A stretch of 64,000 bases of DNA from Cordylochernes scorpioides. Lineage: Eukaryota > Arthropoda > Arachnida > Pseudoscorpiones > Chernetidae. This document shows positions 1,619 through 60,854 of the stretch, in pieces. The notes beneath the pieces were generated by a model that was not told the origin of the DNA, made no database searches, and was given only the letters and a program-made list of their open reading frames with translations. How positions within the stretch are numbered: the first letter of the stretch is position 1; the number at the start of each line of letters is the position of its first letter. A program made the position numbers and the translations under genes. The stretch lies in assembly GCA_030710605.1 (NCBI GenBank), contig CP092880.1:13930454-13994453 (forward strand), given 5' to 3'.

Positions 1619-1680
1619 AGCGGTTGACTAAAATTGATGCAAATCAAGATTAATTGAATAATTTTTAGATAAAGGAAAAG

Positions 1681-3927: not shown

Positions 3928-5765
3928 TTTCTCACAGGAATGAAGACTCTGGTGGTAATAGAAAAGACCGAGTAGAAAACTTTAACATCGATGATGAGCA
4001 TATTACTCAAGATGATAATGATATAGATTTGAGTGAAATAGATGAAATACCTCCTGATGAAATAATTACTCCACGTAGAAGAGGACCAGAACCAGGAATG
4101 ACGAGAGAAATGAGAGAAGAACGAGATCTTCGTCTGAGAGAAACCGAGGAAGAAGAACTTATGAAAAAGGGTGTGAAGAGATCTGAAAGATTAAGACTAA
4201 TAAAGAATAAGGAAAATGTTTCTGATAGAACTTATGAGATTAAATGTCCAAGGGATTACCAAGAAGCACTTAATTCTGATAATAGAGAGCAATGGATTAA
4301 AGCCATGGAAGATGAGATGCAAAGGATTACTAATTTAAAAGTTTGGAGATTAATAGATAAGCCTAAAGATAAAAAATTGATCAAAAGTAAGTGGATTTTT
4401 TCAATTAAGAAAAATAGTGATGGATCAATTAAAAACTTCAAAGCGAGGCTTGTAGCTACAGGATATGATCAAATACTGGGTAGTGATTACCACGAAATTT
4501 ATTCTCCAACAATAAGACCTGAGACCATAAGAATTCTAATAAAAATAGCTGCAATGAAAAAAGTTATTCCTCATCAAAAGGACGTTCAAACAGTTTTTTT
4601 ATATGGTGATTTAGAGGAGGAAATTTTTATGATTCAACCTCCTGGATTTGAAAAGGGAAACAATAAGATTTGTTATCTGATGAAAAGTATTTATGGCCTA
4701 AAACAAGCGAGTAGAATGTGGAATAAGAAATTAGATGAATTATTAACCAATACCGGAATGAAACAATCTGCGAATGATCCATGTTTATATTTTTTCAATT
4801 TTAAAAATCATTTCTTATATCTGGGAATTCATGTAGATGACATACTAAGTGTAGGATCTGGTGACGATTTTGAGGAAAATATTTGGAAAAAGATAAAAAG
4901 AGAGATAGATATCACGGATTTAGGAGCTGAAAAAAACTTTCTTGGAATGGAATTTGAGTATAGGGATGATAGCATTTTTATAAATCAAAAGAAATATATT
5001 GAAGAAATATTGGAAGCCTATAATTTGCGTGATTGCAATCCTTCGAAAACTCCGTTATGCATTTCTACAAATTATGATTTATTTGAAAATAGTAAATCGA
5101 TTGATCAAAAATACTATCAAGTAATTGTTGGAAAGTTAATTTACATAGCAACTAGAACAAGACCGGACATATGTTATGCTATAAGCAATATGAGTAGATT
5201 TAATAAAGATCCTAGAGAGGTTCACATGAATGGATTGAAGAAAATATTAAGATATTTGAAGGGAACTATGAATTATGAATTGATTTACTCTAGGGGAGAT
5301 TCAAGTATTGTGACTTATACTGATGCGAGTTGGGACAGAACAGCTGATGCGAGATCGTATACTGGTTTTGTTATAGAAATGGGAAACAACTTACTTAATT
5401 GGAAGAGTAATAAACAAAGATCTGTTGCCTTGTCAACTGCAGAGAGTGAATTAGAAGCCTTATCTGAAGGAATTAAAGAATTAATTTGGACGCGTAACAT
5501 CATTAGAGAAATAAAGATTAGTTTGAAAGATCAAATTACTGTTTATTGTGACAGCCAGAATGCCATATCTATGATTAAGTAAAAAAATATGAAAGCAAGT
5601 ACGAAGTACTTGAATAGAAAGTGTCACTTCATAAGACAAATTGTAGAAGATGAAGAAATTGAAGTTTTGCATATCCCTTCAGAAGAAATGAAAGCTGACC
5701 ATCTCACCAAGACTGTGGATGCTGTCAAGCTTAAAAACTGCATAAGTGGTGGAGTTATTTTTTGA
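3882..5765 (+). CDS. Copia reverse transcriptase and RNase H (second part, with in-frame stop)
   Basis: The frame continues the polyprotein after the break near 3880. It shows an RVT_2 reverse transcriptase: WIFSIKKNSDG, then ARLVATGYDQ, YGLKQASRMW and the catalytic HVDDI at about 4830-4844. RNase H follows with TDASW, SYTGF, a SNKQRSVALSTAESE stretch and DSQNAI. A TAA at 5580-5582 interrupts the frame, but the same frame goes on for 61 codons to TGA 5763-5765 and holds the expected copia C-terminus (STKYLNRKCHFIR ... DHLTK). So the element is very young by its LTRs but carries one frameshift and one nonsense change. Sequencing error is possible for either. Confidence 0.88.
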
Positions 5766-5785
5766 GGAATGAAAATTGAAAATTT

Positions 5786-5795
5786 GAAGGGGAGA
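5786..5795 (+). promoter_or_regulatory. Copia polypurine tract
   Basis: GAAGGGGAGA lies just before the 3' LTR, where plus-strand DNA synthesis is primed. Confidence 0.8.
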
Positions 5796-5797
5796 TT

Positions 5798-6043
5798 TGT
5801 TGATGTTTATAATTTAAAATATTCATTTTCATTCTATGATTTAATTAATCTGTGAACTAATTTATTCTGTGGTGTTGTATGTATATAAATATGTGTATTT
5901 CTTTGAGTAAGTGTGGGAGATAGTATATGAGGAGACGTTAAGATGTAAGAGTATTTAGTTTTATTATTGTCATTGTTATTTGTGCCTTCAATAAAGAAGT
6001 TTTAAGTTTTAATAGAGAGCAATTTATTAAGATTCTCCCAACA
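5798..6043 (+). repeat. Copia element 3' LTR
   Basis: 246 bp, TGTTGATG to CCCAACA, followed by TGGAT (6044-6048), which repeats the bases before the 5' LTR. The whole element is 1360-6043. Confidence 0.95.
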
Positions 6044-6260
6044 TGGATCGTCAATAGATCGTCAATAACCGATTTGGTTTCTCCATGGAAAGGGTGCCAT
6101 TGCCCCGTTAGTAAAACCACATTTCAGAGTTCCCTGTTCACAGTTCCCGTAGCGGCTCGGGGCTCACGACACCGTACTTCGCCCAACAGGGCTCTTCCTT
6201 ACTTGTGCTGCTTCTCCCACCCGCCACATAGAGGAGGACTTCTGGACTGGAGTTTTCTCT
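6044..6260 (+). repeat. Right part of the old repeat that hosts the copia element
   Basis: From CTCCATGGAAAGGG through GCGGCTCGGGGCTCACGACA to the stretch ending in a GGAGGA run, this matches 54460-54615 with moderate divergence. It is GC-rich compared with its surroundings. A short open frame here is not clearly coding. I do not recognise the family. Confidence 0.65.
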
Positions 6261-6679
6261 CTAACTTCATTGAAACTACTCACAAGGTCGAAACAAGCAT
6301 CCTTTTGTAATCTCAATTTTGGTGATGTTTATATCAAAATAGTGCATTAATATAAGAAATATATAAAATAATGAAAATATTGTAGCGTAGTATATTTGTC
6401 ATTTAAATAATTTAAAGTTTTGGATTTTATTAGATTTACAAAATTTGGCCTGAATTGTGTCATTGCTATAGAAATGTGCGTATCTTCAATTTTAGAGGTA
6501 CACCGTTGTTACCGAAAATAAGGTTAGTTTGCACTTACCTCTCCTCGCGACTTTTTTTCAACGCGACAATATTATACAGTGACAATTAATATATACAGTT
6601 ATCAGCGTCATGCACAATTCTGTCACGTTAAGTCACGTGTCAAGTTACGGTAAGTAAAAATTTAAAAATTAAAAAAAGA
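6261..6679. other. No gene seen
   Basis: AT-rich sequence without recognisable coding, RNA or repeat signals. Confidence 0.4.
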
Positions 6680-6752
6680 TGCCGAAACCCGGGATCGAAC
6701 CAGGGACCTTTAGATCTTCAGTCTAACTCTCTCCCAACTGAGTTATATCGGC
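6680..6752 (-). tRNA. tRNA-Phe (GAA), slightly degenerate
   Basis: On the minus strand a 73-base cloverleaf carries anticodon GAA (6717-6719) in loop CTGAAGA, and a T arm with GGTTCGATCC. Acceptor ends GCCGATA and TTTCGGC have one mismatch (T-T), and the top pair of the D stem is A-A. These two defects suggest a marginal gene or a recent pseudogene. Confidence 0.75.
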
Positions 6753-6964
6753 TTATTTTAGTTATTTCTATAGAAGCTTCTATCTTTATAATTATGTATA
6801 TTTTCAAAAAGTCAATTCACACCTCTTCGCTGGAGACCATGGAAATACTGACTAATTCATTATGCCAAGATATTCATAAATACAAGTATCAGAGTCATCA
6901 ACAATTCTGTCATCGTTTGCTTTTGTGGATGGAATAAATACCTAAATATGGCCATTTCTTATAA

Positions 6965-7035
6965 GCATCGGTGGTTCAGTGGTAGAATCCTCGCCTGCCA
7001 CGCGGGTGGCCCGGGTTCGATTCCCGGCCAATGCA
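6965..7035 (+). tRNA. tRNA-Gly (GCC)
   Basis: A 71-base cloverleaf starting GCATCGGTGG, with anticodon GCC at 6997-6999 in loop CTGCCAC, a good anticodon stem (CTCGC with GCGGG) and T arm GGTTCGATTCC. The acceptor stem has one C-A mismatch. A run of more than ten Ts follows at once, a good RNA polymerase III stop. The 40 bases upstream are shared with the copy at 21870, so this tRNA has been copied as part of a repeat. Confidence 0.8.
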
Positions 7036-7078
7036 TTTTTTTTTTTTTTACAATTTTTAAAACTCTTTTATATTATTA

Positions 7079-7404
7079 TCTCTATATATATAAAAGTCAG
7101 TGTATGTTTGTCAACTATACACGTCCACAATACATAACTAATCTGACTGAAATTTTAACAGTATATAAAGTAGAATCTGGAAAAACTCTTCAGGTCTCTA
7201 TCCCTAATATCCGTCGTGTTATTTGCAAATTTGCTCTTTCGCTCGCGCCTCTAGCAGTGAAAATGGGGGGTAATACCAGCTGACCTAATGTACATGTAAA
7301 GTTTGGAGCGGGACGTTTCACAAGAGTAACATCCACGGCTCCAATTTATAATTGTAACGAATAGTATTTGAATAAAAACATTTAATCGGGTAAAATTCGG
7401 CTAG
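7079..7404 (+). mobile_element. Small non-autonomous Helitron-like element
   Basis: It starts TCTCTATATATATAAAAGTC and ends ATTCGGCTAG, between A (7078) and T (7405), as expected for Helitron insertion between A and T with a 5' TC and a 3' CTAG. Related 3' ends at 21.5-22.8 kb keep a GC-rich hairpin before CTAG. There is no Rep/helicase gene. The open frame through it is not convincing as a protein. Confidence 0.6.
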
Positions 7405-7561
7405 TATAAATACATACATCTACTATATACATATATCTCTCATGTCGTGTGTACAAGTCATAATTCCGGGAGAGTGGTATCCTTGTACCAGAAGGAAGCA
7501 ACATTCTTTAAAAGCGTATTAAAGCAGCTTAAATATTTATTTATTTTTTTTTTTTTGGCAG

Positions 7562-7977
7562 TGACAAAAATTTTACGGAATCACACATAAGTGCAATTTA
7601 CTAGGGCCTGAAGTAAAAGTAACTTAATACACAGAAAAGCGTACACTCAAGAGTACAAAAACAAAATTTTCCACATATATATATTTTTTTTAAATCTGTA
7701 CTTATCTTTTATTGTAGCGTTAGTAGGGATCGGACCGATCACCAGGGAAGATCACCAGAGACAGTTAAAGCACGCAGAGAACACTTTAAGCGTCTCCACA
7801 CGATAATCCACCACAATCGCCTCTGGAAATTCCATACCCCCCTCTTTATGCAAACATGGCCACATTCGTTCAATGAGAAGGCGTGAGAGATTGGTTCACT
7901 TAAAAACTAAAACAAAATTCTTCCCGCTAAATACTGAGAGACGTAAAACTGCTTATGTTTGTCAATATAATTTGACA
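7562..7977 (-). mobile_element. Solo LTR, family T (TGTCA...TGTCA)
   Basis: The plus strand reads TGACAAAAATTTTACGG to the end ATATAATTTGACA, flanked by GCAG on both sides (7558-7561 and 7978-7981). Family T is best seen at 18491-18955. No internal region is attached, so recombination between two LTRs is the likely origin. Confidence 0.85.
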
Positions 7978-8394
7978 GCAGAATCGGCCTAATTTATTAT
8001 TCCCATCAAAGGACCATAGTATATAGGTTATAATTTGCCACAGCTGGTTGTCTGATAGGATGAGAATATAGACCGATTCCTACCACTGCCCCGTTGTAAG
8101 TAGAGGGGATGGTAAACAGTCAATACCACTGACTTTATATGTCATCTGTTCTTTACAAAGATTTTCTACAGTACACAGTTCTTTCCTAGCTCTGCAACCC
8201 TACAATTCTGATATACTATACACTATGATGATGTGGAATATTCGATGATATAATATCTACGCACATTGCGTAGATAAGCAAGATAAGATGCAATGTCTTT
8301 GTGCATTTTAAAGGGGAAGAAGGGGTCTTCTAATCACATATATTATCGCTAAGCCACAAAATACCACAAAAATCAATTTGAACCAAAAATTTGA
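7978..8394. other. No gene seen
   Basis: Mixed AT-rich sequence before the gypsy relic. It may hold decayed gypsy LTR or leader, but I could not match it to the 12.1-12.4 kb LTR. Confidence 0.35.
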
Positions 8395-8808
8395 TATGCA
8401 AAGACGTTTCCGCCGAAGATATAAATTTAGGCAGCCAATGACTGAACATGTAACTCTGCAGAGCACAAGAGAACAGTTGGGTTATTCATAGAATCGCTCG
8501 TCATTTAGATAAGAGCGATGGTACTGAATGGCTGAACACAGCGCAAAGAACGTTAGACTTAAAGAAACAAAAAAAAAGTGAGAACCAAATGTTGTGGGTC
8601 GGTGTTTTAAAAGAAGAGAAAAATAAGAAGAAATCCGAATGGATAATGGAACTGAGAAGTCGAGACCTCTGCTCTACGCTGACGTAAGTAATAGCACGTA
8701 CTCGAGTATCCCTACAAGGAATAGATATGCCGCATTAGAAGATTTAAACTAAGCATCGCGCCTGAGTCCGTCAATCAAAGCAAGTCGACCATAAATGGAA
8801 TTAAAAAG
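8395..8808 (+). pseudogene. Decayed gag end of the gypsy element
   Basis: Broken frames lead into the protease. A segment reading SIPTRNRYAALED at about 8707-8745 looks like the nucleocapsid-protease linker of gypsy elements, and a possible first cysteine of a zinc knuckle lies near 8610. Stops interrupt every frame. Confidence 0.4.
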
Positions 8809-11259
8809 TTGGACCCCAAATATAAAATGAACATTAACGTGGATAGAATCAGTATCTGCGAAGCTTTGATTGATACAGGCGCCGATCTTTCAGTGGTCGA
8901 CCTTAGTACAGCTCTTAACACAGGTCTTGAAATAATAAATCCTGATAAAATGTGCTCCGGACCCGATGGCAAAGAATTAGATATCGTAGGAAATATTATT
9001 TTAAATATAAAATTTGATGACAAAACAATTACACATCAATTTGTGATAATGAGAACACATTTGCGAATATTTATACTTGGACGAGATTTTCTTAAGAAAA
9101 TGAACGCAAAAATTGATTGTCAGCGTGAAATAATCAAATATGACTTGACAGGAAATCGTGACGTAATCAAATATCAACAGAAGAAAATAAAAAGTGCAAA
9201 GGATGCCATTATACCAAAACTTTCTATTAAATTGATTAATGCATTTGTAGAAGCAGAGGATGGCGAATACATCATCGAGGAGAACCATAAAATGTTTCAA
9301 ACAAATGGACTTCGACTAGCGAGAAGCTTAATAAATGTTGTGAATAAGGAAACATATATCTGGATAACAAACTCTTACCCTCGACCATTAAAAATATTAA
9401 AAAACCAAACATTGTGCTTTGGAAGCCAGCCAGCCGAAGTGAATCTTATGGAAGAAAGTGAACAAAAAGAGCATGAAGAACCCCAATTTCAGATAAACGA
9501 AAATTTAGCATATAAGAAAAAGGAGCAATTGAAACAAGTTTTGGAAAAGTACGCGGATTTGTTTTCGTCGGGATTAGGAAGATCCAACTTAGCGAAACAT
9601 CGGATCGATACAGAAGGCGCGAAACCGATCAAACACAAGCCGTATAGGGTGAGCGCGAAAGAGCGAGAAATCATAAAAGAACAAATTGATGAAATGCTCA
9701 GAGACGGCATAATTAGACCATCCTCGAGTCCATGGTCCTTCCCTGTAATCTTGGTCAAGAAGCGAGATGGTAAGTACAGATTTTGCGTTGACTACAGAAA
9801 ATTGAATGATGTAACAGTGAAGGATGTTTACCCAATTCCCAGAATTGATGAAGTATTGGATACACTTCAAGGATCCAAATACTTTTCAGCAATTGACCTT
9901 AAATCAGGATATTGGCAAGTAGAGGTTGAGGAGAAAGATAAAGAAAAGACAGCCTTCACTACAGCACATGGCCTATATGAGTTCAACGTAATGCCCTTTG
10001 GTCTATGCAATGCCCCTGCTACATTTGAGAGGAACATGGAAAATATGCTTGGTAATCTTAGATGGCAAATTTGCTTATGTTATCTAGATGACGTAATCAT
10101 TTATAGCTCGGATTTTTCAACACATCTCAAAAGAATAGAAGCTGTTTTAAGATGTTTTCGCGAGGCTAATTTAAAATTGGACAACAAAAAATGCCAATTT
10201 GCTCTCGAAGAACTGGAGATTCTTGGCCATACAACTAATCAACATGGTATAAAACCAGCGGAGCATAATATCAAGGCTATTAGAGATTTTCCTCGGCCCA
10301 AAAAGATAAAAGAAGTTCAATCATTTTTAGGAATGTGCTCATATTATAGAAAATTTATCAAAGGTTTTTCAAAAATTGCCGATCCATTAACCAGTCTTAT
10401 AAAAAAGAATGTACCTTTTACCTGGACAGAAAATCAAGAAAGAGCATTTCAAACCCTTAAAGTAGCATTGATAAATCCCCCAATCTTAGGGCACTTTGAT
10501 CCGAATGCAATTACTTACATTCATACTGACGCATCTAACATCGGCCTGGGTGCAACATTAGTCCAAAAGTTCGGCGATAAAGAAAAGGTGATCTCATATT
10601 TAAGTCGAACACTGAGCAAACCTGAGCAAAATTATTCGACTACCGAAAAAGAATGTTTAGCTGTTGTGTGGTCAATGTCCAAGTTACGACCCTACCTATA
10701 TGGAAGGCACTTCAAAATCGTAACTGATCATCACGCACTATGCTGGCTTAAGAATCGGAAAGATCCTACCGACCGATTAGCACGATGGGCATTGAAGATT
10801 CAGGAATATAATTTCGAAATTATACACAAATCGGGTAAAAAACATCTGGGCGCTGATGGTCTATCTAGAGGACCCTTACCGGAAAACGAATGGGACGAAG
10901 ATTATGAAAGACTATTTCTGAATCAAATAATAGACGAAAAGGATGATTTTATTGAGAATATTAAGGAGAACCTTAGTGGAAACAAGCGTTCAATTACACA
11001 GAACTTCAAAGAAGAAAATGGGTGTCTCTACAAGAAAAATCCAAATCCTGAAGGTAGGGCATGGTTGCTGGTAGTGCCAAAGAAGAGAAGGAAGGAAGTC
11101 ATGAGTGAATACCACAACCATATGCTGAATGGCCATCTGGGCGTCGCCAGAACCACTTACCGATTGAAGAATAAATACTATTGGCCTTCCATGTTGAAAG
11201 ATGTTTCAGAACTTGCCATCAACGAAAAAAAGAAGAAAGTGGATAATTGTGTTGACTGA
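8809..11259 (+). CDS. Gypsy pol: protease, reverse transcriptase, RNase H, start of integrase
   Basis: 816 residues, so the largest intact piece of this Ty3/gypsy element. Asp22 sits in the protease motif LIDTGAD, and the domain closes with ILGRDFL. The reverse transcriptase runs from about residue 280 to 450 with SSPWSFPVILVKKRDG, VDYRKLN, a MPFGLCNAPATFE segment and YLDD at Asp427-428. RNase H begins near IHTDAS (Asp574) and includes TEKECLAV and TDHHAL. The integrase zinc domain has its two histidines (LNGHLGVARTT and before it YHNH), but the cysteine pair is missing because a deletion joins SELA to an unrelated lysine-rich tail. A chain made from it could still be an enzyme, but it could not integrate. 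The first ATG lies inside the protease region, so the true start is upstream. Confidence 0.88.
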   Translation: MDPKYKMNINVDRISICEALIDTGADLSVVDLSTALNTGLEIINPDKMCSGPDGKELDIVGNIILNIKFDDKTITHQFVIMRTHLRIFILGRDFLKKMNAKIDCQREIIKYDLTGNRDVIKYQQKKIKSAKDAIIPKLSIKLINAFVEAEDGEYIIEENHKMFQTNGLRLARSLINVVNKETYIWITNSYPRPLKILKNQTLCFGSQPAEVNLMEESEQKEHEEPQFQINENLAYKKKEQLKQVLEKYADLFSSGLGRSNLAKHRIDTEGAKPIKHKPYRVSAKEREIIKEQIDEMLRDGIIRPSSSPWSFPVILVKKRDGKYRFCVDYRKLNDVTVKDVYPIPRIDEVLDTLQGSKYFSAIDLKSGYWQVEVEEKDKEKTAFTTAHGLYEFNVMPFGLCNAPATFERNMENMLGNLRWQICLCYLDDVIIYSSDFSTHLKRIEAVLRCFREANLKLDNKKCQFALEELEILGHTTNQHGIKPAEHNIKAIRDFPRPKKIKEVQSFLGMCSYYRKFIKGFSKIADPLTSLIKKNVPFTWTENQERAFQTLKVALINPPILGHFDPNAITYIHTDASNIGLGATLVQKFGDKEKVISYLSRTLSKPEQNYSTTEKECLAVVWSMSKLRPYLYGRHFKIVTDHHALCWLKNRKDPTDRLARWALKIQEYNFEIIHKSGKKHLGADGLSRGPLPENEWDEDYERLFLNQIIDEKDDFIENIKENLSGNKRSITQNFKEENGCLYKKNPNPEGRAWLLVVPKKRRKEVMSEYHNHMLNGHLGVARTTYRLKNKYYWPSMLKDVSELAINEKKKKVDNCVD

Positions 11260-12082
11260 TTATTATACCAAGTATGCTGAAACAAAAGCAGTATCAGAAG
11301 CAACCGTGAAAGAAGTCTCTACATTTTTAATCGAACATATTATTTTACGTCACGGGGCCCCAAGATTTCTTATTAGCGATAGAGGTTCACAATTCACTAG
11401 CAATTTGATGAAGGAGGTAATGAAAATGTGCAAAGTTAAACACTGCTTCACAACGAGCTACCACCCCAAGACTAACGGAACGGCTAAATAGAACTTTAAT
11501 CAATATGATCAGCATGTATGTGAACACAGACCAAAAGAACTGGGACGAAATCCTCCCTTTTATCACCCACGCGTATAATACCACGATTCAAGAAACCACA
11601 GGCTACTCTCCATTTTTCCTGTTGTTTGGAAGGGAACCCATGTCCCTCTTAGACGACGAGAATATCCCAACGGACAGTAACATGGACGATTACGACGAAT
11701 ATATAGAAAACTACTTAGATAAAATAGCAAGGACGAGACAGGTAGTCATTAACAACACAGAGAAGACTCAGGAAAGAATGAAAAGAAACTATGACAAAAA
11801 ACACAATGAGAAAATCTCTGAACCAGGAAATTTAGTGGCAGTTTGGACACCAGTCAGGAAAATCGGAAAATGTGAAAACTATTGAGAAAATATTTTGGCC
11901 CATATCGAATATTAAAGAAGCTTTCTAACGTAAATTACTTAATTGAGCCGAAAGATAATCCTGGCCAAGACCCATTGATTGTCCATGTCTCAAGACTCAA
12001 GCCCTATTTTGAGAGAATTGATGAGGTAGCTCACGAGGACGTGACGACCTCTGGAGAGGAGGAAGTGTTGCATCATGGCTAA
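11201..12082 (+). pseudogene. Gypsy integrase core and C-terminal domain, broken into three frames
   Basis: The first piece (to 11491) holds the integrase core motifs LTDYYTKYAET and SDRGSQFTS. The glutamate region continues in another frame from about 11475 (ERLNRTL), and that frame runs to 11885 with FITHAYNTTIQETTGYSPF and the usual REP box. A further shift near 11880 leads to a short C-terminal piece, 11882-12082, ending in HVSRLKPYF, as in Ty3/gypsy integrase tails. So at least two frameshifts add to the deletion before the core. The order and spacing match one original gene. Confidence 0.82.
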
Positions 12083-16419: not shown

Positions 16420-16756
16420 GATGGAAGCATATAAAGAGAGAAGGGAATGCGGCAAGAACAGAGAGTGCGTGGATAATCTGTGTGGAGCCACTTAAAGTGG
16501 TTTTTCTACTGGCGGTTTTCCCTGTCTGGCTGTTCTCTTGGCATCCCTATGTCCCCAGTCCGATCCCTCCCAACGCTACAATAAAGCTAAGTATTTTTTA
16601 ATTTTATTTAACAAATCGTGAGTTGTTTTTATCTCCCTTTTGTTGTTAGTGTTGTATTCTTGAGTGTATGCTTTTCTGTGTATTAAGGTACTTTAATTTA
16701 GGCCCTAGCTTATTCCATTTTTGTGTGTTAATCCGCAAAAGTAATAACTTTTGTCA
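16420..16756 (+). mobile_element. Family T LTR, 3' part of a split LTR
   Basis: It resumes with a second TATA box region (GCATATAAAGAGAG), then GAATGCGGCAAGAA, CTACAATAAAGC and the end TAACTTTTGTCA, followed by TATG. About 30 bases around the TATA box are present both here and at 14475-14505, so they are duplicated on the two sides of the gag-like gene. Confidence 0.75.
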
Positions 16757-17079
16757 TATGAGCTGATAGTACTTATGGCAGAAAGTAAACTACATTTATT
16801 TACAAACGAAAAGAAATGAAATATTGGTATGCATTGGACTAGCTTAAAACTAAATATTAAAAACAGATTACAACATAATACCGAATATATACAACCAGAG
16901 AGAGAGAGATAATTATATATTATACAAAATATATACTTTTGTAACAACTAATTTGTTGGCAATGTGTTTCTTTTTAATAATATTTGCATAATATGTCCAT
17001 AGGTTCCCTAAACATTCATAAGCTGACTTCCTTATAAAATACAGGGTATATAACTAAACCAATCCAATACAATAGTAGA
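16757..17079. other. No gene seen
   Basis: AT-rich flank; the last part (from about 17040) belongs to the hammerhead-bearing repeat. Confidence 0.4.
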
Positions 17080-17145
17080 GCGGTCTGGAGATTAATTTGG
17101 CGAAACTGCTGAGAGGGTTCACTACTGATGAGCCAAGCTCTCTCA
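17080..17145 (+). ncRNA. Hammerhead-like core, pseudoknotted order (best single copy)
   Basis: In order: GCGGT (17080-17084), C (17085, giving a GUC site), TGGAG (17086-17090), TTGGC (17097-17101), GAAA (17102-17105), ACTGC (17105-17109), then an 8-bp helix arm TGAGAGGG, CACTA (17120-17124), CTGATGA (17125-17131), GCCAA (17132-17136) and the other arm CTCTCTCA (17138-17145). Stem III is GCGGT/ACTGC (one G-U), stem II is TTGGC/GCCAA, stem I is TGGAG/CACTA with one mismatch. All hammerhead core residues are present. The strands come in an order that makes stems I and II cross, so two hairpin loops would have to kiss. The core and stems are seen; the fold and cleavage are inferred. Confidence 0.55.
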
Positions 17146-17414
17146 TTCAATATCTTTTATCATTGTAATAAGGTCTGTTGAGATAATATTTGATAAAAAA
17201 AAATTTGATGAAATTTTTTTAATAATAAAATAGACACATTGCCAAAAAATTAATTGTTGCAAATTTCATCGATAGAAGACAATTGAATTTATAAAAATAT
17301 ATACTAGTGACTTTAAAATATCAAAATTGAACGTGGAGTTATTGGTATTTCTTTATTTTAGTAGCCATATTGAAAATAAAAATTATATTATTGGGAATTA
17401 TGGATCAAGGTTCA

Positions 17415-20955: not shown

Positions 20956-21480
20956 GATAACAGATGGCGCGCTAGTGCATCATATTGAGTGTATAAGAAA
21001 TAAAAGCATCAACGCACGAATGATTCTTTTAAACATAAACAAACTTCTACTATCCTTACTGCGATGAAAAACTATTGGGAGGGCTTGGTTCAATATTGGT
21101 GAGCCTTCCAAGCGGCTTCGCCAATTTAATCCACCAGACCACTTCTTAGAGGTCTAATACTGTATTGGGATGATTCTGTTTATATATGCTACAATGAAGG
21201 ATGGAATCTTAGAAATTATATTCCGCTGGGAGGGTTCACCACTGATGAGCCAAGCCCTCCCAATGTTTTTCCATCGCAGTGAGGAAAGTGAAAGTTTTTG
21301 TTTTATTTGTGAAAGAAAACATTAATCCTTTAATACTTTCATTTGTTATATATAGATGGTACGTTATATCGCCTTATAATTAATTATGTCTAACTGGCCA
21401 TGTCCTTATTGTTTGATAAAGAGCATTGCTCGGTGCAAATATTTATATGTAATTCTACTGTCCTAAAAGCTTATGTCGTG
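20956..21480. repeat. Hammerhead-bearing repeat, palindromic double copy
   Basis: A minus-strand copy (core 21074-21140) faces a plus-strand piece (21222-21270). The minus copy keeps GUC, TTGGC-GAAG and the stems, but its CUGAUGA is lost. The plus piece keeps CACCA, CTGATGA, GCCAA and the 8-bp outer helix but lacks the first hairpin. Outer parts (ATGGCGCGC, TTCTACTATCCTTACTGCGA) match the 41.3-kb array. Confidence 0.65.
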
Positions 21481-21535
21481 TAGTTGCTTGACTACCATAT
21501 CAAAGATTCCACCCTTCAGTGTAGCATATATAAAA

Positions 21536-21639
21536 CTAGCCGAATGACCCGGGAAACGCTCGGGTTTTACCCGATTAAATGCTTTTATTCAAATACTATT
21601 CATTACAATTATAAATTGGCGCCGTGGATGTCATTCTTG
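21536..21639 (-). mobile_element. Helitron-like 3' end
   Basis: On the minus strand a GC-rich hairpin (CCCGAGCGTTTCCCGGG) precedes TCATTCGGCTAG. The upstream part shares GGATGTCATTCTTG-type sequence with 7.3 and 22.7 kb. Confidence 0.55.
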
Positions 21640-26162: not shown

Positions 26163-27131
26163 CTAGGGACATCCTAGGAGCAAAAATGGTCTCCCAGACC
26201 TTTAGGTCCGTAAACCGTGACGTAGGGACATCCTAGGAGCAAAATTGGCCTCCCAGACCTTTAGGTCCGTAAACCGTGACGAAGGGACATCCTAGGAGCA
26301 AAAATGGCCTCCCAGACCTTTAGGTCCGTAAACCGTGACGAAGGGACATCCTAGGAGCAAAAATGGCCTCCCAGACCTTTAGGTCCGTAAACCGTGACGA
26401 AGGGACATCCTAGGAGCAAAAATGGCCTCCCAGACCTTTAGGTCCGTAAACCGTGACGAAGGGACATCCTAGGAGCAAAAATGGCCTCCCAGACCTTTAG
26501 GTCCGTAAACCGTGACGAAGGGACATCCTAGGAGCAAAAATGGCCTCCCAGACCTTTAGGTCCGTAAACCGTGACGAAGGGACATCCTAGGAGCAAAAAT
26601 GGCCTCCCAGACCTTTAGGTCCGTAAACCGTGACGAAGGGACATCCTAGGAGCAAAAATGGCCTCCCAGACCTTTAGGTCCGTAAACCGTGACGAAGGGA
26701 CATCCTAGGAGCAAAAATGGCCTCCCAGACCTTTAGGTCCGTAAACCGTGACGAAGGGACATCCTAGGAGCAAAAATGGCCTCCCAGACCTTTAGGTCCG
26801 TAAACCGTGACGAAGGGACATCCTAGGAGCAAAAATGGCCTCCCAGACCTTTAGATCCGTAAACCGTGACGAAGGGACATCCTAGGAGCAAAAATGGCCT
26901 CCCAGACCTTTAGGTCCGTAAACCGTGACGAAGGGACATCCTAGGAGCAAAAATGGCCTCCCAGACCTTTAGGTCCGTAAACCGTGACGAAGGGACATCC
27001 TAGGGGCAAAAATGGCCTCCCAGACCTTTAGGTTCATAAGCCGTGACGAAGGGATATCCTAGGAGCAAAAATGGCCTCCCAGACCTTTAGGTTCATAAGC
27101 CGTGGCGAAGGGACATTCTAGGAGCAAAAAT
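26163..27131 (+). repeat. 59-bp minisatellite, about 16 units
   Basis: The unit is GAAGGGACATCCTAGGAGCA followed by AAAATGGCCTCCCAGACCTT and TAGGTCCGTAAACCGTGAC. The inner units are almost identical; changes gather at both ends (GTCTCCC in the first, TTCATAAGCC in the last two), as expected for unequal exchange. The unit contains the palindrome CCTAGG and a possible TCCTAGGA core. Confidence 0.95.
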
Positions 27132-27536
27132 GAAGCTTATCCTGAGACTTAAGACGAGGGGGTTAAGAAGATCCAATGGTTGTCTGGAGGAGGCCTCTTC
27201 GTCGTTGGGTGACTGTATGCTATTGTACGTGGTTTCTTTGTATTTTTCCATTCTTGTTACTTTGTGTTGTTAAACTACTCACTGATTTTACTCAAAAAAT
27301 TGTTAAAATGGCGATTTCATAAAGCGAGAATTTTTTTTTTCGCTTTATCACTCAAAATTCAAATCCCACCAATGAATACAAGTAACCAAACTATAGGCTA
27401 TATAAGTATATATTACAAAAAAAAAAGCATAATATGTCGCAACTCTTTTTATTTACTTGATTAAAGGAATCGTTCAGGCAATCCTTTCTTCTGCTAATTA
27501 AAATTTATAAACAAGGCAAGGAGATGGAGATTATAA
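27132..27536. other. No gene seen
   Basis: Includes a short piece (27345-27400) resembling the body of the tRNA-derived SINE at 48.6 kb. Confidence 0.35.
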
Positions 27537-38576: not shown

Positions 38577-39815
38577 CTTGATACACTCATGGACAAAACT
38601 TAAGGAAGTTGTACCTTTTAGCATGTATATCGGGATTAAGACAATAATTCTGATTGATACACTCATGGGCAAAACTTAAGGAAGTTGTACCTTTTAGCAT
38701 GTATATCGGGATCCAGATAATAACTCTGGAAGATCCACTCATGGACAAAACTTAAGGAAGTTGTACGTTTTAGCATGTTTTCAAGTTTCTATTGTTTATT
38801 TTTTCCCCATGAGTTTATTATTTTTATAGATGAAAATTCAGAGAAAATAATTGAAGATTGTGAAAAAAAAAAGGCGAAATTTTGGTTGTCATGTCTTTGT
38901 GAAATACATACACAGCCAAATACTAACATGAGATTTTGTCAAATAGTGGAGAAAACGCACGTCTTGTAATATTTGTGAGAATAAAATTTTCACAATAAAA
39001 GTAACACCAATTCCATAGTTCCCATAATATCCCATCACTTAGAATGAACCTTCTACACACATGGACACACATGGACACACATTTTACCATGTATATCGGA
39101 ACTCAGACAATAACTCTGAAAGATACACTCATGGACAAAACTTAAGCAAGTTGTACCTTTTACCATGTATATCGGGACTCAGACAATAACTCTGAAAGAT
39201 ACACTCATGGACAAAACTTAAGCAAGTTGTACCTTTTACCATGTATATCGGGACTCAGACAATAACTCTGAAAGATACACTCATGGACAAAACTTAAGCA
39301 AGTTGTACCTTTTACCATGTATATTGGGACTCAGACAATAACTCTGAAAGATACACTCATGGACAAAACTTAAGCAAGTTGTACCTTTTACCATGTATAT
39401 CGGGACTCAGACAATAACTCTGAAAGATACACTCATGGACAAAACTTAAGCAAGTTGTACCTTTTACCATGTATATCGGGATTCAGACAATAACTCTGAT
39501 TGATACACTCATGGGCAAAACTTAAGGATGTTGTACCTTTTACCATGTATATCGGGACTCAGACAATAACTCTGAAAGATACACTCATGGACAAAACTTA
39601 AGGAAGTTGTACCTTTTAGCATGTATATTGGGACTCAGACAATAACTCTGAAAGATACACTCATGGACAAAACTTGAGGAAGTTGTACCTTTTAGCATGT
39701 ATATCGGGATTGAGACAATAATTCTGATTGATACACTCATGGACAAAACTTAAGGAAGTTGTACCTTTTAGCATGTATATCAGGATTCAGACAATAACTC
39801 TGAAAGTTATTACAG
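38577..39815 (+). repeat. 76-bp tandem array built from a Tc1-like end
   Basis: The unit is GATACACTCATGGACAAAAC, TTAAGCAAGTTGTACCTTTT, ACCATGTATATCGGGACTC, AGACAATAACTCTGAA. About 3 units stand before, and 10 after, an unrelated insert (38775-39085). TACACTCATGGACAAAACTT looks like a Tc1-type terminal repeat. An inverted end (GTTTTGTCCATGAGTGT) closes the region at 39920. Confidence 0.85.
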
Positions 39816-40142
39816 TGACCTTTATTGAAGATACACGAGATAACCAAGTGTGAGAAAAACTTCCTCTGTCTCCTTCAAAAAAGCAGACAACCGGAAACAT
39901 CAAAATATGAAACTTTTAAAGTTTTGTCCATGAGTGTAATACACAGGGTATATGGACAGAATAAATAAACAATTCAGGCGTTTTATACTTCTTTGTAACC
40001 CAATAGTAGTACCAAACTGGTAATTTAGCTAACCCGTTGGGAAGGTGCTGATAAAAGCCTTCCCAATATATTTTACCTTACTTTTGTAATTATAGTAATT
40101 CGTCTGATTTATATTTTTAATAAGAACAACAAATGACTTGAT

Positions 40143-41055: not shown

Positions 41056-41464
41056 AATATATAGAATTATAAAAAAGGTTTTATAATATTTTTTCAAGGA
41101 AAGTTATCAAAATTTTCGATGTTGATTTAAGAGTATAATGTCGAATTGAGAGTATAATGTCAGTATAGCAAGCTATTACTGAACGAATAAGTAGAATTAA
41201 ATATAATTTATATGAAAAGTAGTTGTAAATTAATGTTGATTAAAACAAATTATTTAATATTATTATTTGGGTATCAAAAAGGTTTTAATTCTTTATGTAA
41301 CAATATAGGGCTTATAGGTTAGGGGTTATAGGCTTATAGGGCTTATTAACACAAATCAATAACGCGCCATCTATACATATAAAATAAAAGGATTTAAAAG
41401 CGCGAATGTTTCTTTTATACATAAAACGAACTTCTACTGTCCTTACTGCGATGAAAAAATATAT

Positions 41465-41531
41465 TGGGAGGGCTTGGCTCATCAGTGGTGAACCCTCCCA
41501 GCGGTTTCGCCAATTTAATCCACCATACCGC
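41465..41531 (-). ncRNA. Hammerhead-like core in tandem unit 1
   Basis: Minus strand, 5' to 3': GCGGT (41531-41527), A (41526), TGGTG (41525-41521), linker GATTAAA, TTGGC (41513-41509), GAAA (41508-41505), ACCGC (41505-41501), TGGGAGGG, TT, CACCA (41490-41486), CTGATGA (41485-41479), GCCAA (41478-41474), G, CCCTCCCA (41472-41465). All three stems are perfect 5-bp helices and the outer helix is 8 bp. The cleavage triplet here is GUA. Confidence 0.55.
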
Positions 41532-41836
41532 TTCTCAGAGCTCTAATATTGTATTGGATCATTCTGCTTTTATATGCTACACTGAAGGATGGAATCTTAG
41601 AAATGGTTTTCAAGTAAACTATGGACATAAGCTTATAGGACAGTAGAATTATATTCAAATATTTGCTTCGAGCAATGCTCTTCAGCAAACTATAAAGACA
41701 AGGTCATTAGGAATAAATTAACACAAATCAATAACGCGCCATCTATACATATAAAATAAAAGGATTTAAAAGCGCGAATGTTTCTTTTATACATAAAACG
41801 AACTTCTACTGTCCTTACTGCGATGAAAAAATATAT

Positions 41837-41903
41837 TGGGAGGGCTTGGCTCATCAGTGGTGAACCCTCCCAGCGGTTTCGCCAATTTAATCCACCATAC
41901 CGC
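41837..41903 (-). ncRNA. Hammerhead-like core in tandem unit 2
   Basis: Same sequence as in unit 1, 372 bp further on. Confidence 0.55.
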
Positions 41904-42208
41904 TTCTCAGAGCTCTAATATTGTATTGGATCATTCTGCTTTTATATGCTACACTGAAGGATGGAATCTTAGAAATGGTTTTCAAGTAAACTATGGACAT
42001 AAGCTTATAGGACAGTAGAATTATATTCAAATATTTGCTTCGAGCAATGCTCTTCAGCAAACTATAAAGACAAGGTCATTAGGAATAAATTAACACAAAT
42101 CAATAACGCGCCATCTATACATATAAAATAAAAGGATTTAAAAGCGCGAATGTTTCTTTTATACATAAAACGAACTTCTACTGTCCTTACTGCGATGAAA
42201 AAATATAT

Positions 42209-42275
42209 TGGGAGGGCTTGGCTCATCAGTGGTGAACCCTCCCAGCGGTTTCGCCAATTTAATCCACCATACCGC
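42209..42275 (-). ncRNA. Hammerhead-like core in tandem unit 3
   Basis: Same sequence as in unit 1, 744 bp further on. Confidence 0.55.
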
Positions 42276-42505
42276 TTCTCAGAGCTCTAATATTGTATTG
42301 GATCATTCTGCTTTTATATGCTACACTGAAGGATGGAATCTTAGAAATGGTTTTCAAGTAAACTATGGACATAAGCTTATAGGACAGTAGAATTATATTC
42401 AAATATTTGCTTCGAGCAATGCTTTCATCGCAGTAAGGACAGTAGAAGTTCGTTTTATGTATAAAAGAAACATTCGCGCTTTTAAATCCTTTTATTTTAT
42501 ATTTA

Positions 42506-43046
42506 TAGGGCTTATATATAGAATTATATATATATTAAATGAAAGATAGTTGGTATTAGAGAAGAGGAGTAAGAGATAAGAGAATCTTCTTAGAGCGGTA
42601 TATTACAATCTATAAAATAAAATAAGACAAGTATCTTAAACGATTTTTTATGGACGCAAGCTTTCGGGTAAGAACCCTTCGACAGGCAGAAACACAGTAA
42701 ACGTGACGATACAAACGCGTAGGAGTATTGATAGTTAAAAAGAAATTAGATAAATATTATTTAAGTTATCAAAAAGGTTTATGTAACAACATAGGGTTAT
42801 AACAAGTTCACGCTGTAGCTTCGACAGTTACACGTCATAGTAGCAGAACATAGGAGAAAAAGGAAGACTTGAAGGTTTTAGGATAACAAAAAGAGCAAAG
42901 ACAGAACCATGTTAACCTTTTATCAAACTTTCAAAGGTAAAAAGAAAGAAATTTTAAAATTTTTTAAAGTATTTTTCAAAATATATATATTTTTAATTTT
43001 TTGTGTTAATAACACTTTTAATAAAACTTTTTAGTGTAAATTGGAG
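42506..43046. other. No gene; PLE hammerhead-like motif at 42655-42695 (minus strand)
   Basis: The minus strand has CTGTCGAA, GGGT, TCTT, ACCC, GAAAGCTTGCGTCC: the same motif as at 36650, here followed by GTC. The rest is AT-rich. Confidence 0.4.
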
Positions 43047-44000
43047 TCAAATTTGTTTGTTTTGTGTTAATGGAGGAACCACAATGGTCTGATCTATGGT
43101 GGCACGCACCTTTTCTAAGGGTATTTCTTTCATTGCTCTCACCAATGCTGATTTCAATTTATCCAAATTATGATATCTTTTATAGCACACCTTTTCCTCT
43201 AAATATGCCCACAAACTGTAAACAAGGGGGTTTAAATCAGGGCTTCCAGAGGGCCATTCATTGGCTTTTATGAACTCCGGAACATTCGTCTCCAACCATT
43301 GTTGAGTTGACTTAGCTTTGTGAGCAGGAGCTGAATCTTGTTGAAATATCCAATGTTCTCCATTAAACATTTTTGTATTCAGAGGCTTTACTATTTGTTA
43401 CAAAATGTCTTATTTATAGTTTTTAGCTGTATTTTTTACCCCTTTGGCACAGAAGTGGAGATCTGTTACACCTTGGTAGCTAACTCCCCACCAAACCATG
43501 ACAGAAGAAGGATGGTGACTTTTTCAAGTCTTCTGACTTTCAAAGAAGCTTCTAGAGAGCTACGAGCATATATCCTATCATTCTGACGATTAATCTTTTC
43601 CTCGACAGTGAAAAATTTCTCGTCTGTGAAAAGGATTCTCTCATGCCACCGACCATCATGCTGCGCCAACAACATTTTTGATCTAACCCTTCTAATATCT
43701 CTAAGAGCAGGGGTTATCAAATGACCTGTGCGTCGTTTGAAAGCTCTCAGTCCAAGGTCTTCGTTGATTATCCTTGAAACTATCTTGGAGCTAAATTTAT
43801 CTGCTTTGCTAAGATCTTTTGTTTGCAGTGTCGATTTCGACGAATTCTTTCGCGAATGGCTTTTATAGCTGCTTGCGTTCGTTGCATGCGAGGTCGACCA
43901 GATCTTTCAAGGTCATCAATAGTGCAAGCCTTGTTGAACCTTTCAATGATTCGATAAACAAATTGACGCGTAATATTCAAATTTTGTAAAAGTTTAAAAA
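43047..44000 (-). pseudogene. Tc1/mariner-type transposase relic
   Basis: Three frame pieces on the minus strand, in order: a helix-turn-helix part (FVYRIIERFNKACTIDDLER, then GRPRMQRTQAAIKAI; 43780-43980), the first catalytic Asp region (RILFTDEKFFTVEEKINRQN; 43466-43720), and the second (WIFQQDSAPAHKAKSTQQWL; 43047-43370). The third catalytic position, normally the Asp in SPDLNPLDYSLW, is Val here (NPLVYSLW). So the enzyme is dead by frameshifts and by loss of an active-site residue. Spacing between second and third acid sites suggests the D,D37D group. Confidence 0.82.
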
Positions 44001-47974: not shown

Positions 47975-48425
47975 ATTGTATACATATAAAATGAAAGGAT
48001 TTAAAAGCACGAATGTTTCTTTTATACATAAAACAAACTTCTACTGCCCTTACTGCGATGAAAAAATATATTGGGAGGGCTTGGCTCATCAGTGGTGAAC
48101 CCTCCTAGCGGTTAAGCCAATTTAATCCACCAGACCGCTTCTCAGAGCTCTAATACTGTATTGGACGATTCTGCTTATATACGCAGCACTGAAGGATGGA
48201 ATCTCAGAAATGGTTTTCAAGAAAACTATGGACATAAGCTTATAGGACAGTAGAATTACATTCAAATATATGCATCGAGCAATGCTCTTCCGCAAACAAT
48301 AAAGACAAGGTCAGTTAGGCATAAATTAACACAAAGCAATAACGCGCCATCTATAAAAGAAACATTCGTGCTTTTAAATCCTTTCATTTTATATGTATAG
48401 ATGGCGCGTTATTGATTTGTGTGAA
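47975..48425. repeat. Hammerhead-bearing repeat with inverted ends
   Basis: Like one unit of the 41-kb array, closed at the right by the inverse of its left end (AAAGAAACATTCGTGCTTTT ... AGATGGCGCG). So single copies have terminal inverted repeats of about 70-100 bp. Confidence 0.75.
48072..48138 (-). ncRNA. Hammerhead-like core with GUC, GAAA lost
   Basis: GCGGT-C-TGGTG, CACCA-CTGATGA-GCCAA and the outer helix are kept. GAAA has become TTAA, so this copy should be inactive. Confidence 0.45.
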
Positions 48426-48464
48426 TTTTATACTGTCTTTAATTCTGTGATAAAAAAATATTGG

Positions 48465-48530
48465 AAAAGCTAAGCTCGTTCCTGAACATTTACCTACGGT
48501 TTCGCCTGTTTAATCTACCAGACCGTTCTA
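48465..48530 (-). ncRNA. Decayed hammerhead-like core with a compensatory pair
   Basis: Stem III is ACGGT (48526-48522) with ACCGT (48500-48496): the outer G-C pair of the array is A-U here. GUC and GAAA are kept; the CUGAUGA strand is decayed. Confidence 0.4.
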
Positions 48531-48539
48531 CTATTGTAT

Positions 48540-48840
48540 TATGGGGTAGATGGAAGGATGATCTAAACCGTTGGTATTCGACCGCTACCACCCGGGATCG
48601 AATCCCGCATTGAGTACTTTTTTATGATTTAAAAAAAAATGCTCCAATGGCCCCCGATTCTTGCAAAGGTCCAACCCCACCAGCGAGTGCAAGTAACCAA
48701 ATGGGACTCTGTCACATTTGTAAGTCCAAAAGTCGAACTGCTTTTCATATGTGTAGACATGTGGTGCACTTACAGTAAAAGCAGTTGCTAACAACCCACC
48801 ATGATTATCATGGCCTGTACCACGTGTACTAGGGACAACA
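48540..48840 (+). mobile_element. tRNA-derived SINE, copy 2
   Basis: Head with GATGGAAGGATGATCTAAAC and B box GGGATCGAATCCC, then the body shared with 35815-36125. No T-rich stop or clear duplication. Confidence 0.7.
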
Positions 48841-59320: not shown

Positions 59321-59486
59321 TAGGGTGATACATTTTCAAAAGGAGAATGTTCTACTACATTTACAATGTGAAATAGAACACTAGCTATGTTAAACAATCT
59401 AAAAATATTTATATAAAACTCGAAGGTTATGAAATTCCAGCTCTTACACTTATATCATAAATAGATATCCTATTAATTATTGGGTA

Positions 59487-59665
59487 AAAACGCGCCATAT
59501 ATATGTAAGAAAGGACGCAAGTTTCTTTTAAACATAAAACAAAATTTTATTGTCCTTGGCGAAACCGCTGGGAGAGTTCACCGTGAGTCAATCCCTCCCA
59601 ATATATATTTCATCGAATTAAGGACAGTAGAAAAGTTTCAAAAAGAAACTTGCATGCTTAAATGT
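59487..59665. repeat. Shortened copy of the hammerhead-bearing repeat
   Basis: The plus strand has GGCGAAACCGCTGGGAGAG and TTCACCGTGAGTCAAT, then the outer helix strand CCCTCCCA. The CUGAUGA is reduced to GTGAG. The outer repeats on both sides are inverted (TTTCTTTTAAACATAAAAC and the inverse). Confidence 0.6.
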
Positions 59666-59787
59666 CATATTATTGACAGATATTTCGACCTTTGTCATTG
59701 TGCTATCCTGTCAGGTATTGAAAACTAGAAGAATGATCCAAGTAATACCTTGATCTTCCCCAAATCGATTTTATCTTACTGTATATT

Positions 59788-60006: not shown

Positions 60007-60201
60007 AGAAATTCAGAAGTGGGATAGTCCTGAAGAAAATTGAAGATTCACTGGAATAATTTGGAAACGAGAAGGACGTGGCGCGGTGACCGATCAACGT
60101 AAGAGGAGTTGCATGGTATGTACGAAATTTAATTACCTATTCCTAAAAGTATTATTACAAGTCACCTCGGTAAAATATTATTGCAAAATCATCTCGATAA
60201 G

Positions 60202-60660
60202 AAAGTATTTTAAAGTAAAGTGAAGTATTTTAAAGAAAGTATTTTAAAGTAAAGTGAAGTATTTTAAAGAAAGTATTTTAAAGTAAAGTGAAGTATTTTA
60301 AAGAAAGTATTTTAAAGTAAAGTGAAGTATTTTAAAGAAAGTATTTTAAAGTAAAGTGAAGTATTTTAAAGAAAGTATTTTAAAGTAAAGTGAAGTATTT
60401 TAAAGAAAGTATTTTAAAGTAAAGTGAAGTATTTTAAAGAAAGTATTTTAAAGTAAAGTGAAGTATTTTAAAGAAAGTATTTTAAAGTAAAGTGAAGTAT
60501 TTTAAAGAAAGTATTTTAAAGTAAAGTGAAGTATTTTAAAGAAAGTATTTTAAAGTAAAGTGAAGTATTTTAAAGAAAGTATTTTAAAGTAAAGTACAGT
60601 ATTCTAAAGAAAGTATTTTAAAGTAAAGTAAAGTATTCTAAAGAAAGTATTTTTAAAGTA
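60202..60660 (+). repeat. 34-bp tandem repeat in the gypsy leader, about 13 units
   Basis: The unit is GTGAAGTATTTTAAAGAAAG then TATTTTAAAGTAAA. The middle units are identical; the last two vary (CAGTATTC). It lies between the LTR and gag, so it would be in the transcript's leader. Confidence 0.92.
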
Positions 60661-60854
60661 AATTGAAGAAACAAATAAAAAGTATTATCGCAAAGTATCG
60701 CGGTAAAAAGAAAAAAAAAAGTATTGTCTCAAAATTACCAAAGAAAAGTTGATTTCGTTTAAAGAAATAATTGAAACAGTACGTATCTGGTTTAGTCAGT
60801 TTTATTTGTTTATTTTTAAAATTTTTGCCTTGTTTATTTTTCCTTTTGAAAAAC

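Follow-up and report, generated by a model that had tools for sequence, protein, structure and literature searches.

The stretch of DNA analyzed here (the window, 64,000 nt of the genome of the pseudoscorpion Cordylochernes scorpioides) holds on its minus strand, at 41465-41531, all the core parts of a hammerhead ribozyme with perfect stems, as a preliminary description of the stretch had claimed and as sequence and pattern comparison confirmed. Read along that strand, the motif opens with block S, consisting of the stem III' strand GCGGT (41531-41527), an NUH site that reads GUA (U at 41527, A at 41526) and the stem I' strand TGGTG (41525-41521). A linker, GATTAAA (41520-41514), leads from TGGTG to TTGGC (41513-41509), the stem II' strand at the start of block G, which continues with GAAA (41508-41505) and the stem III strand CCGC (41504-41501). 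Block C comes last, with the stem I strand CACCA (41490-41486), CTGATGA (41485-41479) and the stem II strand GCCAA (41478-41474, followed by G), and it lies between TGGGAGGG (41500-41493, followed by TT) and CCCTCCCA (41472-41465), the 5' and 3' strands of an 8-bp helix. As RNA, the motif reads GCGGU-A-UGGUG-GAUUAAA-UUGGC-GAAA-CCGC-UGGGAGGG-UU-CACCA-CUGAUGA-GCCAA-G-CCCUCCCA, so that the helix UGGGAGGG/CCCUCCCA encloses CACCA-CUGAUGA-GCCAA. Stems I, II and III and the 8-bp helix form without a mismatch; stem III can be extended by a sixth pair, A41532-U41500, and stem I to seven pairs (TGGTGGA/TTCACCA, including one G-U).

The order of the blocks on the minus strand is S (III'-NUH-I'), G (II'-GAAA-III), C (I-CUGAUGA-II). 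Canonical hammerheads of types I to III follow the circular order C-G-S, whereas this site follows the reverse cycle, and the fold must therefore be pseudoknotted. The preliminary description had taken this strand order to be new; it is instead that of the type-SGC hammerhead of Eckert et al. 2023 (PMC10085705), for which that study describes 583 predicted sequences, cleavage in vitro at the predicted site and a requirement for all four helices in the tested variant SGC-3. The site has the S-G-C order, CUGAnGA, GAAA, the NUH (A15.1-U16.1) and the helix joining the distal sides of stems I and II; it also resembles type SGC, as described there, in forming stems I to III as two pseudoknots and in a stem III that abuts the helix without a linker. 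By analogy with hammerheads and with the published type-SGC site, the RNA would be cut after H17, here an A (GUA^U), between 41526 and 41525 on the minus strand.

The preliminary description had missed that two further copies of the site accompany it in a tandem array of 372-bp units, and that diverged relatives lie elsewhere in the window. Tandem Repeats Finder delimits 2.9 copies of the unit at 41345-42427, each with the identical ribozyme on the minus strand: the first at 41465-41531 (covariance-model match 41452-41536, 105.2 bits), the second at 41837-41903 and the third at 42209-42275. The two full units compared are the same at all 372 positions, and their content of G plus C is 35.5%. 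Together with self-comparison and boundary analysis, the repeat outlines a retrozyme-like insertion at 41347-42502 with about 2.9 tandem units whose sense strand is minus, an inverted segment of plus sense (about 42423-42502) on the 5' side, and a 13-bp target-site duplication, TTATAGGGCTTAT, to its left (41334-41346) and right (42503-42515). A protein search with an antisense 60-aa reading frame of the unit gave no candidates. We conclude that the site is very probably a type-SGC hammerhead that provides self-cleavage to a small retrozyme-like retroelement of about 370 nt, which is apparently non-coding and is very abundant in Cordylochernes scorpioides. Sequence comparison supports the fold and retrotransposition, and we infer cleavage, a circular RNA and an enzyme.

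Abundance was assessed in the Cordylochernes scorpioides assembly (2.62 Gb, 24 contigs). A DNA similarity search of the genome returned at least 42 matches (40 of 779 candidates scored), and a pattern for the core, GGCGAAACN{5,30}CTGATGAGCC, which spans blocks G and C but not S, had 69,162 exact matches, compared with 0 for the reversed control. Three subfamilies are set apart by compensated pairs in stem I, in stem II and in the helix around block C, and counts of perfect 66- or 67-nt ribozymes across the whole genome exceed 5,500 for each. Subfamily A (UGGUG/CACCA, UUGGC/GCCAA) has perfect 67-mers with GUC (10,274), GUU (64), GUA (45) and GUG (15) at site 17; subfamily A2 (GUA, with stem II CUGGC/GCCAG) has 5,926 perfect copies, and subfamily B (stem I UAG/CUA, P4 GAGAGGG/CCCUCUC) has 5,591. 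Among 20 arbitrary 4-kb stretches (80 kb), four contained copies, with 11 covariance-model matches at E<=0.1, and one array found there (L273) holds four perfect GUC copies. Elsewhere, at G000:C1:3060811-3061212, four subfamily B-like core matches are spaced at 122 bp, where the usual unit is three times as long (about 368 bp), and possibly represent a shorter monomer.

The preliminary description had proposed that two kissing hairpins build the core in a non-circular, pseudoknotted order, and it had named covariation as a test of stems I, II and III. We examined 25 pairs in four sets of copies: the eight in-window copies (A1), and 30, 33 and 43 chosen distinct copies with a block S (A3, A4 and A6, respectively), from which partial copies, duplicates and some subfamily A copies with one change were left out. 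In A1, which takes in the partial copies D2, E and F of the window and in which some stem III cells compare unrelated sequence, both sides changed in 5 of the 25 pairs (seven cells), and only 4 of 500 shuffles matched this by cells. In A3, A4 and A6, changes on both sides occurred in 6, 8 and 10 pairs, numbers reached by 1, 0 and 1 of 500 shuffles; the corresponding cells numbered 10, 14 and 25, against shuffled means of 1.7, 2.8 and 8.3, and no shuffle of 500 reached them in any set. Slid controls of A6 gave at most seven pairs and nine cells. By helix, the ten A6 pairs fall one in stem III, one in stem I, two in stem II and six (of seven) in the flanking helix. Pseudoknotted stem II gives the strongest single case: its outer pair is U-A in 29 of the 43 rows, C-G in 12 and unpaired in two. 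Since relatedness inflates such counts, few of the events are independent; the compensated pairs that distinguish the three amplified masters, however, are an argument that owes nothing to the shuffles. With changes on both sides in every helix across the copies, the covariation supports the proposed kissing arrangement, most weakly in stem I. The preliminary description is thus partly supported, its structural reading having held up while its claim of an undescribed topology has not.

We also asked how the core compares with chance and with other models. We shuffled the window 2000 times at the dinucleotide level after removing six copy regions. With any of the six block orders allowed and a span of up to 100, a core of maximum score (14/14 pairs) arose four times in all, once in the SGC order, and in none of the four was block C enclosed by a 7-bp helix. 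For the array copy in the window, nested minimum-free-energy folding gives both hairpins, with weak pairs in their loops (-29.3 kcal/mol, z -3.0), and a circular fold of the whole 372-nt unit also shows the two hairpins. No Rfam 15 hammerhead was found at the SGC sites, whether in the window at the gathering threshold, at the site at E<=5 or at six loci at E<=1; two sub-threshold HH9 matches (L263, 22.1 bits, and L254, 21.3 bits; gathering score 52) lie away from SGC sites.

Core conservation was scored in 86 covariance-model matches from 26 sources, a sample in which tandem copies and the duplicated L265/L266 region are counted. CUGAUGA, GAAA and U-H are all kept in the aligned columns of 58 of the 86, and the masters of all three subfamilies (A, A2 and B) keep the core. 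Of the 67 matches whose block S is readable, 21 have C and 46 have A at site 17, a sample that is not unbiased, as the GUA ribozyme was the query that yielded the first loci. Among the places listed, there are tandem or paired copies with A and with U at site 17 and none with G, which fits the NUH rule; mutation rates alone might explain the low count of G, and we do not use it as evidence. Nor do we use the lower substitution rate of the ribozyme region (4.6%, compared with 5.8-8.5% in the rest of the unit), which is discounted because most loci came from the ribozyme query.

Several observations weigh against a functional type-SGC fold and belong beside this support. The linker between stems I and II is 7 nt long with a 5-bp stem I and 5 nt with a 7-bp stem I, while that of published SGC ribozymes is typically three. 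Only one stem I pair is changed on both sides: the subfamily B master and L313, two of the 43 rows, have A-U there in place of G-C. In 21 of these rows the fifth pair of the stem does not form (A-C in subfamily A2), and an A-A mismatch lies inside the stem in subfamily B. By pair count the A1 result is less clear than by cells, as five pairs are reached by 31 of 500 shuffles and matched by one slide. Nested folding of copies B, C1 and D1 gives unremarkable values (z -0.85, -0.81 and -1.24, respectively), and the circular 372-nt fold is hardly stabler than mononucleotide shuffles (-78.7 versus -73.1, standard deviation 4.8). At site 17, the window array has GUA whereas the commonest form of subfamily A is GUC; 15 GUG forms occur genome-wide in the subfamily A 67-mer, and among the copies fetched later, one has G and one has U (L312:1479 and L315).

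Evidence on how the element moves comes from its insertions. Flanking duplications of 11-15 bp border 13 of 50 candidate insertions (including L266, which repeats L265 as a duplicated region), whereas 300 mismatched flank pairs gave at most 10 bp. Ten of these 13 are head-to-head, a minus arm meeting a plus arm by their 5' sides. Such arms were seen at L255:1417-6597, L244, L248, L252-L254, L257, L264, L265 and L267, with outer ends near two unit positions. In a list of 44 arms compiled by hand from the main insertions, leaving out relics and truncated pieces, 19 arms have their outer ends at unit positions 450-466, 25 at 480-499 and none elsewhere, a count that is descriptive only. The largest case, L255, has 12 and 2 ribozymes head-to-head within one 14-bp duplication, with the core intact in all 14, and eight of its tandem units differ at 0-2 of 372 positions once three out-of-register units (44, 263 and 219 differences) are left out. 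The duplications, the inversion and the near-identical tandem units are seen directly; because tandem units within one insertion are nearly identical, we infer a circular template.

Head-to-head insertions could come from twin priming on a single RNA, the reading considered first, or from two RNA molecules, and their arms bear on the choice. Among 14 insertions examined, chosen by the GUA query so that each has at least one GUA copy, site 17 (A versus C) differs between the arms in six of the eight that are readable, and arms with different variants may reflect two RNA templates per insertion. Besides this choice of loci, two comparisons weigh against two templates: arms diverge by 3.3% on average (0-9.3%) within an insertion, compared with 6.5% between insertions, and they are identical in L255 (0/372) and in the window array (0/80). 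The data fit rolling-circle copying primed at both target strands, from one or two RNA molecules. Less favorable to retrotransposition are the 37 of 50 candidate insertions without a duplication of at least 11 bp, many of which are relics or pieces, and array L273, which has no clear target-site duplication; moreover, no reverse transcriptase was linked to the element, although Penelope-like elements were not searched for.

Three other explanations were weighed against a cleaving SGC hammerhead. The structure could be kept for packaging, for binding of the reverse transcriptase or for priming, with a slow or dead ribozyme and amplification via multimeric linear RNA. The clustering of arm ends at two sites, albeit in a hand-picked list, is what one might expect if an RNA feature were recognized; the SGC rates published in PMC10085705, 0.007-0.19 per min, are on the slow side for hammerheads, and the window array carries GUA. 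However, the hammerhead rules (CUGAUGA, GAAA, NUH) are kept in three masters with 5,591-10,274 perfect copies each, and we consider this explanation very unlikely.

It is also conceivable that the fold that cuts is a canonical hammerhead assembled across neighboring units (as in a type III-like core that takes S and C from one unit and G from the following one) or a dimer in trans, with the SGC order being incidental. Tandem arrays do exist, and axolotl retrozymes are described as cleaving better as dimers (PMC7229834). Yet the helix that closes block C, an SGC feature that a canonical core does not need, has the most compensatory changes (6 of 7 pairs), published SGC monomers cleave alone (PMC10085705), and a cross-unit fold would have to close loops of about 300 nt with 5-bp stems though the same partners lie within 67 nt, which makes such an assembly very unlikely. 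That hammerhead-like words came together by chance in an ordinary satellite repeat is extremely improbable, for although partial matches of several block orders do occur by chance, no full-score core with a flanking helix arose in the shuffles, all helices show compensatory changes, all subfamily masters keep the core, and target-site duplications at 13 insertions argue against a purely DNA-level satellite.

Returning to the self-cleaving SGC module as the preferred explanation, we propose the following route. Tandem genomic units would be transcribed, and in the RNA stem III and the helix around block C would fold as hairpins whose loops kiss via stems I and II, a step to which the covariation lends support. 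The core would then cut after H17, once per unit, as its conservation and the published SGC ribozymes suggest, and the resulting monomers, with 5'-OH and 2',3'-cyclic-phosphate ends, would be circularized, probably by an RtcB-type ligase as proposed by analogy with animal retrozymes. A reverse transcriptase acting in trans would copy the circles at a nicked target into tandem cDNA, and priming apparently takes place on each target strand independently, in some cases with different RNAs, which would leave head-to-head arms between the 11-15-bp duplications. More tentatively, and with somewhat less than even confidence, we suggest that the element represents a new class of animal retrozyme with an SGC hammerhead and tens of thousands of core copies, and that its insertion goes by dual target-primed rolling-circle reverse transcription. 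In this scheme both strands of a staggered target break would serve as primers, each for a separate circular RNA and at one of two preferred positions some 30 nt from each other, giving two tandem arms, sometimes from two RNAs, head to head within one duplication.

Comparison with known elements places the family close to retrozymes. Metazoan non-LTR (long terminal repeat) retrozymes are described in PMC7229834 as low-GC tandem repeats of 150-450 bp with type I hammerheads, in a search that covered types I and III. The 372-bp tandem units, the 35.5% GC content (below 50%), the hammerhead in every unit, the range from dimers to large multimers and the target-site duplications longer than 4 bp (11-15 bp here) are all alike. 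In contrast, the hammerhead is type I there and SGC here, and head-to-head arms with two preferred ends belong to the pseudoscorpion element, the word 'inverted' being absent from the main text of PMC7229834. By analogy, the element appears to work like a retrozyme but falls outside the type I retrozymes. Plant LTR retrozymes (PMC4918200), as described in PMC7229834, are likewise non-autonomous and have a circular RNA intermediate, which is presumed for the pseudoscorpion element; unlike it, they are 600-800 nt long, with an LTR, a type III hammerhead and 4-bp duplications. Penelope-like elements share a hammerhead and tandem copies but, going by their descriptions, are autonomous and protein-coding with a minimal type I hammerhead; they have been proposed as the source of reverse transcriptase for animal retrozymes (PMC7229834).

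Relative to the published SGC ribozymes, the differences, as far as PMC10085705 describes them, are that the motif repeats here in an animal genome assembly and that its linker is 5-7 nt rather than typically three. In that study the SGC motifs include HRIMA-1 and nearly all motifs come only from metatranscriptomes; genomes of known organisms yielded, among its motifs, only a type-GCS candidate and no SGC. The likeness that we describe is one of description and not of sequences, and it is compatible with either homology or convergence. Within open-licence full texts, preprints excluded, we found no report of SGC ribozymes in animals or of hammerheads in pseudoscorpions, and a report outside those texts is possible.

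Searches of bacterial, archaeal and viral sequences gave no convincing relatives. A family-specific pattern had no match in bacterial or archaeal genomes or in viral contigs, and a match to the G-block 19-mer in a metagenome-assembled genome of Gammaproteobacteria was rejected as chance, with the rest of the motif lacking. Generic G..C patterns matched at least 238 loci in viral contigs, and 239 fetched loci (2.15 Mb) contained 359 type II (GSC) versus 12 SGC arrangements at a score of at least 8; ten of the 12 are also explained by type II, and the remaining two (L037 and L154) look like chance. Some IMG/VR contigs, such as L020, L041, L051, L067, L077 and L078, carry four generic G..C matches each.

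Relatives of the array lie at several other places in the window. Copy B (17062-17181, plus) is a subfamily B relative with CUGAUGA, GAAA and GUC intact and P4 GAGAGGG/CUCUCUC. Copy C1 (47979-48428, minus) comprises a main arm at 47979-48355 (minus) and an inverted 5' arm at 48349-48428 (plus); its ribozyme (48059-48143) is probably dead, because GAAA has changed to UUAA. Next to it, copy C2 (48428-48540, minus) is an old degenerate relative in which block C has decayed and which retains one compensatory pair in stem III and one in stem II. Across 47979-48540, the younger C1 with its inverted arm thus abuts the far more diverged C2, an arrangement suggesting nested insertion or recombination, and comparison of the C1/C2 boundaries found no clear target-site duplication around it. 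Copy D (20993-21550) has head-to-head arms, a minus arm at 20993-21223 with block C decayed and a plus arm at 21223-21550 with block C intact but block S and most of block G truncated. Copy E (59486-59674) is a head-to-head relic that has mostly kept the helix and partly lost CUGAUGA to a deletion, and copy F (40003-40113, plus) is a very diverged relic in which P4 is kept with a compensatory change of G-C to A-U.

Other repeats also lie in the window. Adjoining the array, at 43047-43906 (minus), are broken reading frames that we take to be those of a mariner/Tc1-like transposase. Another dispersed repeat, with copies of about 260 bp at 72-92% identity and no relation to the ribozyme element, occurs at 16501-16756 and about nine other places, near 18.7, 52.2, 27.7, 57.6, 29.0, 14.0, 45.2, 47.6 and 36.4 kb. 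Polyprotein reading frames of Copia type (1669-5582) and Ty3/gypsy type (8725-11885), both on the plus strand, have close relatives in Cordylochernes scorpioides, the Ty3/gypsy polyprotein being up to 98% identical to proteins of this species. Further tandem arrays lie at 26165-27132 (59-bp unit), 39082-39806 (76 bp) and 60199-60668 (34 bp).

What these results add to Eckert et al. 2023 is a place: SGC core matches by the tens of thousands in an animal, inside a retrozyme-like tandem retroelement. Type SGC had no known host as PMC10085705 describes it, and the pseudoscorpion genome would supply both a host and a probable role, while several SGC subfamilies in one genome amount to natural covariation data. 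Elements of this kind would escape a search restricted to hammerheads of types I and III. The Cordylochernes scorpioides element makes three questions testable: whether cleavage by pseudoknotted hammerheads takes place in a living animal, whether any hammerhead topology will serve a retrozyme, and how animal retrozymes integrate.
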